From IMG/VR virus record IMGVR_UViG_3300014913_000073, positions 1 to 25,042 of that record: DNA of 25,042 bases. One strand, given 5' to 3'. Numbering within the stretch: the first letter of the stretch is position 1; every line of letters starts with the position of its first letter. The notes below the pieces were generated by a model. The model was not told where the DNA came from. It ran no database searches and saw only the letters and a program-made list of their open reading frames with translations. The DNA is from a virus. The translations under genes were made by a program, and so were the position numbers. Of the stretch, positions 2,584 through 20,600 are shown in pieces.

Positions 2584-2612
2584 GGCGTGTGTTTGTGTGT
2601 GGGGTTGTTGGT

Positions 2613-3236
2613 ATGAAGACGTTTATTCGCAAAGATTATAAGTTTTGGGTTTGCAAGTATAGGGGCAGAAAGGCCTCAATCGTTTATCCCTGCCTGGTGT
2701 CGCTTAAACGGCACGGAGAACTTCAGTATATTGTCAATTTTAACGGCAAGCCTTATTGCGTAAATAAAGATAAGTTTGGAAGACACAGGCTTGATTTTCC
2801 TGCCTTGAAGGAGTTTGAGAAATTCAACCTTCCTAAAGGAATTTATCTTGGCGAATTGTATTATGGAGAAGGAAAAACGGATGAAGATTTTTACACTTTT
2901 TTAAGCAGGAAAACTTCAGATGAGCTGCGGCTTGATGTTTTTGGAGTGTATCAGTTAGGAAAAAGAACAGGGATAATGACAGAGGAGACAGTAAGGGTTT
3001 TGTTAAAAATCAAGAATGGAAAGCATTGCAGGAAAGCAAAGTTCTGGCTGGTAAGGAACGAGAAAGAGTTAAAGAAGCTGATAGATAAATGGATAATCAA
3101 AGAGGGATATGAAGGCCTGGTGGTCAGGAACATGAAGGCCTGGTGGCTGCCAAGGGCAAGTTACAATTGGGTTAAGATTAAAAAGAAGAGCAGAGAGCAA
3201 AATTATAAGAACGGTAAATATGGGTGGTGGTTATGA
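2613..3236 (+). CDS. Putative ATP-dependent ligase-like nucleotidyltransferase without OB domain
   Basis: Counting from the ATG at 2613 (207 residues), the motifs of covalent nucleotidyltransferases appear in order: motif I K32-R-H-G35 (usual form KxDG), GRHRLDFPAL (about 56-65), motif III with YLGEL and E81, a IIIa-like RLDVFGVYQL (about 106-115), motif IV EGLVVR with E167, and motif V WVKIKK with K188/K190. This predicts transfer of AMP (or another NMP) to Lys32, as in DNA/RNA ligases. Only about 17 residues follow motif V, so the OB-fold of ordinary ligases is missing. The motif I Asp is His. A GTG at 2589 would add eight residues; neither start has a strong ribosome binding site. RNA ligase or a degenerate ligase are alternatives. 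Confidence 0.68.
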   Translation: MKTFIRKDYKFWVCKYRGRKASIVYPCLVSLKRHGELQYIVNFNGKPYCVNKDKFGRHRLDFPALKEFEKFNLPKGIYLGELYYGEGKTDEDFYTFLSRKTSDELRLDVFGVYQLGKRTGIMTEETVRVLLKIKNGKHCRKAKFWLVRNEKELKKLIDKWIIKEGYEGLVVRNMKAWWLPRASYNWVKIKKKSREQNYKNGKYGWWL

Positions 3237-10638: not shown

Positions 10639-11963
10639 TGTTAGAAAAAATACTGGCTAAGTCAATTATAGATAATTCGTTTTGGTTTAAAGTTAAGGAC
10701 GATGTTTTTGAAATAGAGAAGTCGATTGTTGAAGAACAGGTTGTTTTAAACATTTCGTCTTTTTTCAAAACCTACCAAAGGATGCCTTCCCGAAGCGAGC
10801 TTATTCTTGTATGCGAGAGAAATCTTAAATCTGAAGAGAAGAAGTTTTGGTCGGAATATAAGGAGTTTATCGGGAAAGTTTATTCGCAGGCTGGCGAGAT
10901 GGGAGGTGTGGGCGAAGAGGTGCTTGTTGAGGTTTTGGCTGAGGAAAAGAAGAGGACGAAACTTAAAAGAGTTATTCAAGAGGCAGGAGTTCTGGTTGAA
11001 AAGTCAACAGGCGAGGCGTTGAAGTTTTTGGAGAAATTTATATTCAAGCAAGAGGTGTTTAAGAAGGATAGGAAGATAGTTGCGGTTGAGGATGTGGATA
11101 ACAACTTTGAGGCAATGAAGTATCGAATGTCAGAGAGAGTGCCGACTTTGATTAAGAGCCTTGATGAGGCTTTATATGGAGGGTTAGGCGTTAGAGAACT
11201 TACTTGCTTTATCGCTCCGACGGGAAAAGGGAAGACAACTTTTCTGGTTAATTTGATGTATGGTTTTTTAAGCCAGGGGAAAAATTGTCTTTATCTTACG
11301 CTTGAGATGGGAATAAGGGATATTTTGAGAAGGCTTTATAGAAGGATCTTGTTTGCAAGCAAAGAGGAGTTTTCTGAAGGGAGTGATGAGGAGAGGCTTA
11401 AGAAATGGCTGAATAAGTTTTTCGGGATGAGCGGGGCGAAAGGCAAGGTAGTATATTATCCGCCGAACAGCTTAGGCGTTGAGCAGGTGATGGAAGAGAT
11501 TAAGCGGATAGAGTTTGAAGATGACATTAAAATTGATGTTTTGTTGATTGACCATCTGGATTTGATGACTTCATGGACGAGGTCTATCAGGCAGAAGGAG
11601 AGTTTTTCGTTTTGGAGGCTTGTTGTTGACGAGTTAAGGCAGATTGCGCTGAAGGAAGGAATACCAGTTGTTACGGCCACGCAATCAAACAGAGGCAGTG
11701 TCAATAAGACTGTGATTACGGAGGTAGATGTTGGCGAAAGTTTTGGGAAGGTGCAGAGTTCAGATGTTGTGTTGACACTTAACCAGACGGCGGAAGAGGC
11801 TGATTTTAACAGGATAAGGGTTGTGGTGCTTAAAAACAGAGATTTTTTAAGAGGAAGGTCGGTTGAGCTTTATGTTGATTTTAACAGAATGATGATTTGC
11901 GATTTAATGTTTGCTCAGGCGAGCGGATGGCTGGTGGGAGATGAAGCAGAAGGAGTTGATTGA
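10638..11963 (+). CDS. DnaB-type replicative DNA helicase
   Basis: The 441-residue product has a helical N-terminal region (about 1-150) and a RecA-like motor domain: Walker A APTGKGKTT (193-201), LTLEMG (220-225), Walker B VLLIDHLDLM (301-310) and TATQSNR (346-352, the glutamine motif). This is the layout of hexameric 5'-3' helicases such as DnaB, T4 gp41 and T7 gp4, which unwind the fork and engage primase. The N-terminal region has the size of a DnaB N-domain plus linker but does not closely match it. GTG 10638 overlaps the loader stop. The 3' end overlaps the primase start by 23 bases. Confidence 0.92.
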   Translation: MLEKILAKSIIDNSFWFKVKDDVFEIEKSIVEEQVVLNISSFFKTYQRMPSRSELILVCERNLKSEEKKFWSEYKEFIGKVYSQAGEMGGVGEEVLVEVLAEEKKRTKLKRVIQEAGVLVEKSTGEALKFLEKFIFKQEVFKKDRKIVAVEDVDNNFEAMKYRMSERVPTLIKSLDEALYGGLGVRELTCFIAPTGKGKTTFLVNLMYGFLSQGKNCLYLTLEMGIRDILRRLYRRILFASKEEFSEGSDEERLKKWLNKFFGMSGAKGKVVYYPPNSLGVEQVMEEIKRIEFEDDIKIDVLLIDHLDLMTSWTRSIRQKESFSFWRLVVDELRQIALKEGIPVVTATQSNRGSVNKTVITEVDVGESFGKVQSSDVVLTLNQTAEEADFNRIRVVVLKNRDFLRGRSVELYVDFNRMMICDLMFAQASGWLVGDEAEGVD

Positions 11964-14341: not shown

Positions 14342-14377
14342 CCCGAAGCCGAGAAAAGGTTTCGGGATTTTTATTTT
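14342..14377 (+). terminator. Rho-independent terminator after the UvsW-like gene
   Basis: Stem CCCGAAGCC (14342-14350) with GGTTTCGGG (14358-14366), including one G-T wobble, a 7-base loop, and a T-rich tract to 14377. It begins within two bases of the stop codon and lies 30 bases before the polymerase gene, so it probably attenuates rather than isolates downstream expression. Confidence 0.85.
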
Positions 14378-14406: not shown

Positions 14407-17400
14407 ATGGATATAGAGAGGATCAAGAGAAGCCCTTTGTATTCAGTAGACAAAAAAATTGTAATCGGCAGAGGCAAAAAGCCTGCCGATTTTTTGTTTA
14501 TAGGAGAGGCAAGCGGCAAAACAGAAAACCGGATAGGCAAGCCTTTTGTAGGAAGAAGCGGAGAGCTTCTTAACTGGTGGATACAGGAGGCCGGAATTAG
14601 CAGTTTTTATATTTCTAATGCTGTTCCTCTTATGCCTGTTGACGCTATGGGGCAGATAAGGAAGCCTACTCTGGAGGAGATAGAATATTTTAAGTTTTTT
14701 GTTGACGAGATATTTGAAGAAGTCAAGCCAAGGTTTGTGGTTGCTATTGGCGATACTGCGTGTTTATCTCTTTTTGGGAAACCTATCAGAGAATGCTTAG
14801 GGAAAGTATTAAAGGTTAAAGGCGCGAGGGCGATAGCTGTCTATCATCCTGCTTATTTTTTAAGAAGAGGGACAGAGGAAGAAGGGAAAAGAAAGTTTCT
14901 TGAGGCGTTTGAACTTTTAAAGAGCGAAACAAGCCAGGAGTATTTTCCATTGCATTTACACACTGATTTTTCAGTAGGGGATGCTGTTGCAAGCGTTAGC
15001 GAGTATGTTAAGGTTTTTACGGTTATGGGGTTTCGAGGCGGAGGAATTTGCGAGCATGGGAATTTGAGTTCAACGTGGCAGTGGCAGAAGAAACTCAGGG
15101 AAGTGGACAAGAAGCCTCTTTTTGGCGTGGAGATGTATGTATTTGATGGAGAAAGCTATGATGATTTGAGGCCGAAATCGAAGGATAAGAACGAAAGAAG
15201 GATTTACAGGCATTTGTGTTTGTATGCGAAGAATGAGGTTGGCTGGAAGAATTTGCTTAAACTTAATTGGCTGTCGGTTGTTAAAGGTTTTTATTATAAG
15301 CCGAGAGTTTTGTTAAAAGATGTTTTTGAGAACAGCAAAGGCTTGATAGCGACGAGTGCCTGCACGAGTGGATTTTTGATTTATTATCTTATGAGAAATC
15401 AGGTAGAGGAAGCGTTTAGATACGCGGAGATGTTTAAGAAAGTATTTGGTTCTGATTTTTATATTGAAATTATGCCTCATTATGAAATTAAAGAGTATTG
15501 TGCGGTTGTTCCTGCGTTGATTAAGATGGCGGATAGTTTGGATGTAAAAATGGTAGTTAGTTTAGACGCTCATTATGTTCATAAGGATGAGAAGGATTTG
15601 CATAGATGTTTGCTGGCGATTGACAGGAAGAAGAAGTTTAAGGATGAGCCTGGCTATACAGGGAATACATATTTTTTGATGAGCAGCGAGGAGTTAAGGG
15701 AAAATTTGAATAAAGTATGCAGCGAGCTTAATGTTGATGAATTATTTCGGAATAGTTTTGAAATAGCAGATAAGTGCAATCTGGTTCTTAAACCATTTGA
15801 ACCGGAAGAAATTTTGCCTTCATTTGGAGGAGAGAAAAAACTTATTGAGATTTTTAATGACAGGTTTGAGAGGATGGAGATAAGGAAAGGCAAAGAGTAT
15901 GTTAAGAGAGCAAAGATTGAGATTGACAGAATTTGCCGGAAAAAATTTGCGGATTATTTTTTGCTTGTAGATAGGATACTTGATGAGGCAAGAAAGATGG
16001 ATATAAGGATTGGCGTAGGAAGAGGGTCAGTAGGAGGTAGTTTGGTGGGATATGTTATGGGGTTTCATATTGCTGACCCTATTAAATATGATTTGATTTT
16101 TGACAGGTTTATTTCAGAGGCAAGAAAAGACCTTCCTGATATAGATTTGGATTTTCAGGATACCAAAAGAGAACAATTGATTGCAAGGCTGGTTGAGATA
16201 TTTGGCAATGAGAATGTCTGCAAGATAGTTACCTTTTCGCAGTTGCTGGGGAGAAGTGCGGTCAGGGATGTAGGAAGGATACTTGATGTTGACAGAAAGG
16301 AATATGAGCAGCTGGCTTCAAAGATTTACAGGGATATGAATCTTGAGTGGGAGTTTAGAGATGGGAGGCTTAAATTTTATATAAGAAGTTTCCCTAAGAA
16401 ATTGGTTAGTTTTGTTTTAGGATGTCAGGGGATAAAGAGGCATAGGGGTGAGCATGCTGCTGGTGTTGTGTTGACGAAGAAACCTTTGTTTGAATATATA
16501 CCGGTTTTAAGGGTAAGAAATAATATTGTGAGTGCGTGGGATAAGGATGATTTAGCGGAGATGGGTTTGATTAAGATTGATATATTGGGGTTGAAGGTTC
16601 TGGATATTATAGATAAGGTTGTGAAAATGACAGGGGCGAAACTGCCTAAGGATTTTAATGATAAGAATGTTTATGAAAATATTATAAAGCAGGGGAACAC
16701 TTATGGCGTGTTTATGCTTGAAACGGAAGGAATGAGAAATTTTGTTAAAAACCTTAAACCTGATAATTTTTTTGAATTGATAGATGCTAATGCCTTATTC
16801 AGGCCGGGTCCGTTGAGAAGCGGATTGGCAGATAAGTATGTGGCAAGGAAGTTTGGCAAAGAAAGGATACGGTATTTTTGCGATGCAATGAAAAAACTGA
16901 CTGAGGCAACAAGGGGGATAATAATTTATCAGGAAACAGTTATGAGAATAATGCATGATATTGGAGGGTTTAGCTGGGAAGAGGCGGAGAAGGTTAGAAA
17001 AGTGGTGGCCAAAAGTAAAGGCGAACAGGAAATAGAGAAATTAAGAGGCAAGTTTATTAAAGGCGCACTTGAAAGAGGAATTGACAAGATACAGGCAGAT
17101 AAAGTTTTTGATGATTTAAAGAGGTTTGGAGCATACGGCTTTAATAGGTCGCATAGCTGTTTGTATGCCATATTGGCTTATTATATGGCGTGGCTTAAGT
17201 ATTATTATCCGCTTGAGTTTTATAAAGTTATTCTGGATAGAGAAACAGATGTAACGATGAAGGAAAAATACCTTGCGGAAGCAGTTAAGCTTGGAGTTAA
17301 GGTTGTTCGGCCGCATATAAACAAGTCAAAAGAAGGTTGGACGCTTGACAAGGAAAAGAAAGAGCTTATTGCGGGGTTTTCAAGTATAAAAGGATTGGGC

Positions 17401-17679
17401 GAAAAGTATGTTGCAAAACTTGTTGAAGGACAGCCTTATAAGAGCATTGATGATGTGGTTAAGGTGGTTAATAAGGCGGTTGTGCGTTGTTTGATTAAGG
17501 CAGGGGCAATTGATGAATTTATTCCTTCAAGGAAGTGGGCTCTTGAAAACATAGACAGTTTAATGAAGGGGCTGACTATGTTTGAGATGTCTAATGAGAA
17601 AGAGAAAGAGTTTTTTGATGCAGAGAAGAGGCGGATTGAAAGGGAAATTCTTGAAGGTTTTGGATTAGTTTTGAAGTGA
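14407..17679 (+). CDS. dnaE: Uracil-DNA-glycosylase-like domain fused to DnaE-type DNA polymerase III alpha
   Basis: This 1090-residue protein starts with a domain (about 1-178) of the family 4/5 uracil-DNA glycosylase fold: GEASG (33-37), GKPFVGRSGELLN (44-56), SNAVPLMP (70-77) and the catalytic-type YHPAYFLR (146-153). The four Fe-S cysteines of family 4 are missing. A PHP domain follows, LHLHTDFS with H183/H185, EHGN (216-219) and LDAHYVH (386-392), suggesting possible 3'-5' exonuclease activity. The polymerase core has GRGSVGGSL (538-546), PDIDLDF with D580/D582, and IDILGLKVL with D725. Helix-hairpin-helix segments lie near 1000-1045. The usual C-terminal OB and tau-binding parts are missing. 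AAGGAGAAAG sets ATG 14407. It is the replicative polymerase of this phage. Confidence 0.93.
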   Translation: MDIERIKRSPLYSVDKKIVIGRGKKPADFLFIGEASGKTENRIGKPFVGRSGELLNWWIQEAGISSFYISNAVPLMPVDAMGQIRKPTLEEIEYFKFFVDEIFEEVKPRFVVAIGDTACLSLFGKPIRECLGKVLKVKGARAIAVYHPAYFLRRGTEEEGKRKFLEAFELLKSETSQEYFPLHLHTDFSVGDAVASVSEYVKVFTVMGFRGGGICEHGNLSSTWQWQKKLREVDKKPLFGVEMYVFDGESYDDLRPKSKDKNERRIYRHLCLYAKNEVGWKNLLKLNWLSVVKGFYYKPRVLLKDVFENSKGLIATSACTSGFLIYYLMRNQVEEAFRYAEMFKKVFGSDFYIEIMPHYEIKEYCAVVPALIKMADSLDVKMVVSLDAHYVHKDEKDLHRCLLAIDRKKKFKDEPGYTGNTYFLMSSEELRENLNKVCSELNVDELFRNSFEIADKCNLVLKPFEPEEILPSFGGEKKLIEIFNDRFERMEIRKGKEYVKRAKIEIDRICRKKFADYFLLVDRILDEARKMDIRIGVGRGSVGGSLVGYVMGFHIADPIKYDLIFDRFISEARKDLPDIDLDFQDTKREQLIARLVEIFGNENVCKIVTFSQLLGRSAVRDVGRILDVDRKEYEQLASKIYRDMNLEWEFRDGRLKFYIRSFPKKLVSFVLGCQGIKRHRGEHAAGVVLTKKPLFEYIPVLRVRNNIVSAWDKDDLAEMGLIKIDILGLKVLDIIDKVVKMTGAKLPKDFNDKNVYENIIKQGNTYGVFMLETEGMRNFVKNLKPDNFFELIDANALFRPGPLRSGLADKYVARKFGKERIRYFCDAMKKLTEATRGIIIYQETVMRIMHDIGGFSWEEAEKVRKVVAKSKGEQEIEKLRGKFIKGALERGIDKIQADKVFDDLKRFGAYGFNRSHSCLYAILAYYMAWLKYYYPLEFYKVILDRETDVTMKEKYLAEAVKLGVKVVRPHINKSKEGWTLDKEKKELIAGFSSIKGLGEKYVAKLVEGQPYKSIDDVVKVVNKAVVRCLIKAGAIDEFIPSRKWALENIDSLMKGLTMFEMSNEKEKEFFDAEKRRIEREILEGFGLVLK

Positions 17680-19836: not shown

Positions 19837-19859
19837 GTTTATTGAAGAGGGGGTGTGAG

Positions 19860-20600
19860 ATGGGGTTTTTGAAGTTAACCCCTGTGTGGGGCAAGCATAG
19901 ATATAAGTATATTTTGGACAAGGTTCTTTTGAAAGTGTTGGGCAGCAACTACGCTAAGGTTAAAGGGTATTATGTCGCTGGCGGGGCAGTAAGAAGCGCT
20001 TTTGCTGGCGAAAAGATAAAGGATTTAGATATTTACTTTCTTTCAACATCGGACTGGGAGAAGAGGAAAGAGTTTGCTAATTTCAAGAATATGAAGTTTC
20101 TTTTCGGGACAGAGTTTGCTGAGACTTACGAGACCGAAGGGGTTCCTGTTCAGTTTATTAAGAGGTTTTACGGCGAGCCAGAAAGAGTGATGAGCGAGTT
20201 TGATTTTACTATTTCAATGGCTGCTTATTTGCCGGAAAGAGAGGAATTTTGCCTGGGGGAAGATTTTTTGCATCATTTGTGTGAGAGAAGGTTAGTGTTT
20301 AACGAAAATACAAGGTTTCCTGTTTCAAGCCTTTGGCGGGTGAAGAAGTTTTTGAAGAGAGGGTATAAAATTGGTGCCAGGGATATAATTGTTTTGGCAT
20401 TGGCGGTTCACAATCTTAAAATTGAAACTTTTCGGGATTTAAAAGAGCAGCTTGACGGGATTGACACCTGGCTTTTGAAAGATATTACTGACAAGATGAT
20501 TGAGGATAAAGGAGAGGCTGAGTATGATTTGGTTGAGTTTATAGCGTATATTGACGAAAAAATAGCAGATTTGTGGGGTAGAGTAGAAGAGGAGGATTAA
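19860..20600 (+). CDS. Pol-beta superfamily nucleotidyltransferase (PAP/CCA-adding head-like)
   Basis: From ATG 19860 (246 residues), GYYVAGGAVRSAF (about 36-48) followed by KDLDIYFL (54-61) is the GG-x-R plus DxD signature of the poly(A) polymerase/CCA-adding enzyme head. D55 and D57 would bind metal. The rest of the fold, including FDFTISM (about 118-124), is consistent. Many phages carry such a gene next to recombination genes; its substrate is unknown. A TTG at 19842 is an alternative start, but GAGGGGG lies between it and the ATG. It is followed one base after its stop by the recombinase gene. Confidence 0.82.
   Translation: MGFLKLTPVWGKHRYKYILDKVLLKVLGSNYAKVKGYYVAGGAVRSAFAGEKIKDLDIYFLSTSDWEKRKEFANFKNMKFLFGTEFAETYETEGVPVQFIKRFYGEPERVMSEFDFTISMAAYLPEREEFCLGEDFLHHLCERRLVFNENTRFPVSSLWRVKKFLKRGYKIGARDIIVLALAVHNLKIETFRDLKEQLDGIDTWLLKDITDKMIEDKGEAEYDLVEFIAYIDEKIADLWGRVEEED

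Follow-up and report, generated by a model that had tools for sequence, protein, structure and literature searches.

Among phages, the fusion of a uracil-DNA glycosylase (UDG) domain to a family A polymerase (PolA), as in SPO1, is the known parallel for a UDG carried by a polymerase. On the C-family polymerase DnaE, a C-terminal UDG replacing the oligonucleotide/oligosaccharide-binding (OB) fold and the C-terminal domain (CTD) was described from some Yersinia and Salmonella strains, in one sentence, by Timinskas et al. in 2013 (PMC3919608). In poxviruses, the UDG D4 acts as a polymerase processivity factor (PMC10253040). Here we describe a gene in a 25,042-base virus record (IMG/VR record IMGVR_UViG_3300014913_000073, positions 1–25,042; this whole stretch is called the window), in which a family-4-like UDG domain without Fe-S cluster cysteines was found at the N-terminus of a DnaE polymerase. 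A preliminary description had noted this fusion and had already named the SPO1 polymerase as its known counterpart.

A UDG domain preceding a viral DnaE

The UDG-DnaE open reading frame (ORF) is located on the plus strand at 14407–17679, with an ATG at 14407 and a stop codon ending at 17679, and encodes 1090 amino acids; these coordinates were found to be exact. The other five frames over this region contain 28–133 stops each, and AGAAGGAG 5′ of the ATG constitutes a strong Shine-Dalgarno sequence. Pfam matches, all passing the curated cut-offs, gave the domain order UDG (PF03167, residues 21–171), PHP, DNA_pol3_alpha, finger and HHH_6. From the end of the last UDG helix (about residue 173) to the first histidine of PHP (residue 183) the linker is near zero, which confirms the direct in-frame run of one domain into the other.

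The UDG domain (residues ~1–173; 14407–14925, plus strand, as are all features given below) matched PF03167 with an E-value of 1.3e-22, which places it inside the UDG superfamily, as had been proposed. Sequences returned from the PDB with the N-terminus were TM0511, TTUDGA, the phiLo polymerase 9qhs and UdgX. An AlphaFold2 (AF2) model of the domain alone (predicted local distance difference test, pLDDT, 95.8; predicted template modelling score, pTM, 0.90) showed similarity to 1l9g in Foldseek (E 1.3e-15), with TM-scores on the query (TMq) of 0.84 for 1l9g/1vk2 and 0.82 for UdgX. The domain as modelled is thus a family-4 fold. A fold-library match to A7KV44, a 1348-aa viral protein, was set aside. 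The full-length model (pLDDT 87.2) gave matches to Pol III alpha of bacteria, and separate ones to UDGs and 9qhs.

All glycosylase motifs quoted in the preliminary description were present. In UDG alignments, motif A (GEASG, 14503–14517) provides E34, GKPFVGRSG (14536–14562) the uracil-stacking F47, SNAV (14614–14625, the start of SNAVPLMP) N71 for uracil recognition, and motif B (YHPAYFLR, 14842–14865) H147 and R153, so that the uracil-pocket residues are all present. E34, F47, N71 and H147, as well as P148, are invariant across 30 diverse viral UDGs; nine columns are invariant in this set, and every one is retained in the window UDG. The family 4 combination of a pocket Phe and Asn with HP[AS]..LR in motif B is represented by F47, N71, H147 and R153. 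Within residues 1–178, cysteine occurs just twice, as C119 and C130, and both lie outside the cluster positions, in agreement with the earlier observation that the four Fe-S cysteines have been lost. UdgX is characterized by GEQPG and a KRRIH R-loop, and its counterpart of SNAV is TNAV (PMC10359453). An assignment to UdgX was rejected, as the window has GEASG and no KRRIH anywhere in the sequence.

The PHP domain (14950–15570, last ligand at 15571–15573; PF02811) keeps all nine metal ligands (H183, H185, D192, H217, E242, H269, C319, D387 and H389), in columns invariant across 17 aligned proteins; the ligand set of active PHP domains is HHDHEHCDH (PMC12926913). The C-family polymerase core and finger (15868–17076; PF07733 and PF17657) carry the catalytic aspartates D578, D580 and D725 in invariant columns, and a helix-hairpin-helix (HhH) region, HHH_6 in Pfam, lies at 17293–17535. 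The PHP-Pol3-HhH core of a DnaE with its catalytic aspartates is therefore in place, and the protein scored 698 bits against TIGR00594 (DnaE, NCBIfam; cut-off 434). Identity as a UDG-PolA fusion was rejected, since the polymerase domains are of the C family only, and so was the C-terminal DnaE-UDG layout, since the UDG precedes PHP and does not follow HhH. The OB fold and the CTD are absent: no OB match was found, and the chain stops 47 residues past HHH_6. LTMFEM (residues 1056–1061; 17572–17589), which aligned to MTLFDI/MSLFDF of other phage DnaE, is a candidate sliding-clamp-binding motif.

Related fusions and their ancestry

IMG/VR was scanned with UDG patterns and the matches were confirmed with the whole protein. 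Two more lineages of uncultured viruses with the order UDG-PHP-Pol3-HhH were found in other metagenomes, L028 (IMG/VR 3300005326_000042; 1341 aa) and L029 (3300005323_000046; 1340 aa; also L030 and L108). They differ from the window protein by a ~50-residue linker, an extra ~240-residue C-terminal region and the presence of all four cysteines, and their UDG parts pass the UDG_fam4 cut-off. Because L028 and L029 come from independent metagenomes and share the architecture, chimeric assembly of the window gene is argued against. The DnaE parts of the three proteins formed one clade, both in a quick tree (Shimodaira-Hasegawa-like approximate likelihood ratio test, SH-aLRT, 98) and in a careful tree (bootstrap/SH-aLRT 99/98). 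Monophyly of the UDG parts was not rejected, the constrained tree being better by 28 log units (approximately unbiased test, p-AU 0.8). Separate origins of the window and L028/L029 fusions, hinted at by the quick UDG tree, were dropped after this test and the DnaE trees. With a DnaE clade and UDG parts that fit a common origin, the simplest history would be a single N-terminal fusion, after which the window lineage lost the cluster. No report of an N-terminal UDG-DnaE was found in a literature search of incomplete coverage; we regard this layout as new, the UDG-DnaE fusion as such being already known in its C-terminal form. Near the fusion gene of L108, an ORF at 10677–11054 reads like an archaeal-type peptidyl-tRNA hydrolase (Pth2).

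A UDG at the C-terminus was first found in four DnaE matches, and a scan with these gave 80 loci, which are the best 80 matches to the fusion query and say nothing on frequency. Altogether, a C-terminal UDG was present on DnaE in 68 viral ORFs (some duplicated between contigs) and in L351. On contigs of bacterial genomes, 81 DnaE ORFs, likewise a limited sample, all lacked a UDG. The cultured Pseudomonas phage hairong and Acinetobacter baumannii plasmids of ~107 kb also have the C-terminal layout in proteins named DNA polymerase III alpha, and many DnaE-UDG proteins carry this annotation only. Besides, a UDG ORF lies between two dnaE pieces in three viral contigs (L031:4923–10264, L353:791–5377 and L354:4980–10020). 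The association of UDG and polymerase thus recurs, as an N-terminal clade, as C-terminal fusions and as a UDG gene inside a split dnaE. The earlier statement that such a domain is unusual on a C-family enzyme holds for the N-terminal position and the cluster loss; for the fusion itself it does not, given ~70 viral C-terminal fusions and the published case (PMC3919608). Long DnaE-UDG ORFs were seen in L285/L306 (1544 aa) and in L343, L302 and L272 (1445–1527 aa), and the ~350 residues interrupting the UDG of L285/L306 are probably an intein. Bacillus phage KLEB27-3 has a stand-alone UDG, which was discarded as a further case, as it adjoins a primase and not dnaE in the 18 kb examined. In Serratia and Pseudomonas phages (H169–H172, H165, H186, H187 and H192), the UDG-PolA gene overlaps or adjoins a dCMP/cytidine deaminase gene.

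The pocket E-F-N-H was complete in 3/3 of the N-terminal, 49/63 of the C-terminal and 42/45 of the PolA-sized (long-ORF) fusions, a pattern that selection for uracil binding or excision would produce. All four cluster cysteines were present in 60 of the 63 viral C-terminal fusions. Among the PolA-sized fusions, 12 had at most one cluster cysteine and 11 of these retained E-F-N-H; on the UDG tree, which includes the poorly extracted row L032, the cysteine state must have changed at least five times. The pocket can therefore be maintained where the cluster is lost, and an enzyme without these cysteines is not necessarily dead.

Possible roles of the UDG domain

The product of the UDG-DnaE gene is the replicative polymerase of a tailed virus. 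Its UDG domain, tethered to the polymerase, may act at the fork as an active glycosylase or as a reader of uracil, and we give this reading, which we rank first, an even chance of being correct. In that case, the family-4-like UDG, N-terminal to a DnaE that has neither OB nor C-terminal domain, would still be an enzyme though cluster-free; held on the polymerase, it would scan fork DNA and excise uracil derived from cytosine deamination or dUMP incorporation. Uracil repair would thereby be coupled to replication, and the abasic sites left by excision would be handled by other enzymes. The joining of UDG and DnaE at least twice, in opposite orders, suggests that uracil is handled directly at the forks of these viruses.

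Several observations weigh against this reading. The domain scored 100.4 bits against TIGR00758 (UDG_fam4, NCBIfam), below the curated cut-off of 125.3. Motif A is not GE[AG]PG, its glutamate being kept and its proline replaced by S36, and the four Fe-S ligand columns hold I/S/L/F, whereas the closest fusions retain the cysteines. Single-protein pattern scans with the whole protein and with its UDG part found no close relative from which selection on the domain itself could be judged; a scan with the UvsX of the window likewise found none. Excision of uracil from the template at a fork is hazardous. In addition, the pocket residues were lost and the fold kept in hairong, the Acinetobacter plasmids, L271, L298, L324 and L283, most of which keep cysteines; in L348:2474–5857 (hairong) and L349:2483–5938 (Acinetobacter plasmid), three of the four cluster cysteines remained and the pocket E, N and H were all replaced. 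Catalysis is therefore not required in every fusion, and these sequences point to a structural role of the UDG in the C-terminal lineages that lost the pocket.

Such degenerate pockets on a kept fold would also suit a module for DNA binding, processivity or docking, for which glycosylase chemistry is irrelevant and whose role would be comparable to that of D4. This explanation is ranked second for the window protein and held to be rather unlikely. It agrees with the absence of the OB and C-terminal domains beyond the 47 residues after HhH, as the UDG occupies their place in the C-terminal layout (PMC3919608). However, such a role would not maintain an intact pocket in most fusions, and L028/L029 have a UDG plus their additional C-terminal region, so that the UDG need not replace anything. 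Because the uracil pocket of the window protein is intact, docking only is less likely there. Archaeal B-family polymerases have an N-terminal pocket that binds template uracil and stalls synthesis. That the UDG stalls the polymerase by binding uracil in the template before the active site is reached, without excision, is ranked third and appears doubtful here: it would fit a lost cluster with a retained pocket, and in 4/63 C-terminal fusions Q stands in place of the motif A glutamate while N and H are retained, which is compatible with binding and inefficient cleavage, but E34 and H147, which should contribute to chemistry and not just to binding, are kept in the window protein and in most fusions.

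That the fused UDG is a relic in decay without present function is very improbable, since all nine invariant columns are kept and the model is well folded, even though the loss of the cluster and of the proline at position 36 and a long branch would be in line with it. Hardly credible is an artefact of chimeric assembly or of a wrong start. An in-frame TTG (codon 182, 14950–14952) with AGGAG 9 nt upstream sits exactly on the UDG/PHP border and is a possible internal start, which makes a DnaE-only product conceivable; the ORF is uninterrupted, however, with its strong Shine-Dalgarno sequence at the ATG and the same architecture in independent metagenomes.

The glycosylase or uracil reader may be extended to a replication-coupled uracil checkpoint, in which the UDG would stand in for the missing OB domain on the template strand and read fork uracil together with the PHP exonuclease and polymerase of the same chain, a coupling that would have evolved repeatedly, on PolA and at both ends of DnaE; we regard this extension as speculative and unlikely. 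Should the domain act on uracil, a replicase of the C family, which is bacterial, would handle uracil within its own chain, something that, to our knowledge, is not known from any DnaE. That UDGs recur on PolA and at both termini of DnaE suggests a general difficulty with fork uracil in these viruses. Catalytic and structural roles can be separated experimentally by means of the three architectures: an intact one, one with the pocket but no cluster, and one that has lost the pocket and largely kept the cluster.

Genome context and comparison with described systems

Upstream of the UDG-DnaE gene, a consensus scan indicated a terminator-like hairpin with a T-run (14342–14366). Other genes of the window encode a gp32-like single-stranded DNA-binding protein, a UvsX-like recombinase, UvsW-like and DnaB-like helicases, a primase and a DnaA-like AAA protein. 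The protein composition (charged minus polar 0.188, IVYWREL 0.454) resembles that of thermophiles, which is no more than a hint; in a hot host, cytosine deamination would be faster. Weak matches below the curated cut-offs were obtained at 19842–20600, to the head (nucleotidyltransferase) domain of poly(A) polymerase, and at 2589–3236, to an ATP-dependent DNA ligase domain, the latter possibly being a ligase fragment.

Compared to described systems, the window protein is like the 'DnaEX' of certain strains of Yersinia pestis and Salmonella enterica (PMC3919608) in combining a C-family polymerase with PF03167 in the absence of the OB fold and CTD, but its UDG is at the opposite end, and it has none of the Fe-S cysteines that the viral C-terminal fusions keep. 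SPO1 gp31, the polymerase of Thermus phage phiLo (PDB 9qhs) and PaBG gp205 (PMC7412058) likewise carry an N-terminal UDG on a replicative polymerase, and many phage UDG-PolA fusions also lack the Fe-S cysteines; these three are, however, PolA enzymes with a DEDD exonuclease, whereas the window protein is a C-family polymerase with PHP. The UDG of Bacillus phage SP-15 (AMM44899.1) was among the best tblastn UDG matches (36.5%) and shares with the window an insert after SN/SS, but it is encoded by a separate gene and keeps three cysteines. The family 4 enzymes TM0511 of Thermotoga maritima and TTUDGA of Thermus thermophilus have the fold and the pocket residues in common with the window UDG, and differ from it in being stand-alone proteins with a [4Fe-4S] cluster.
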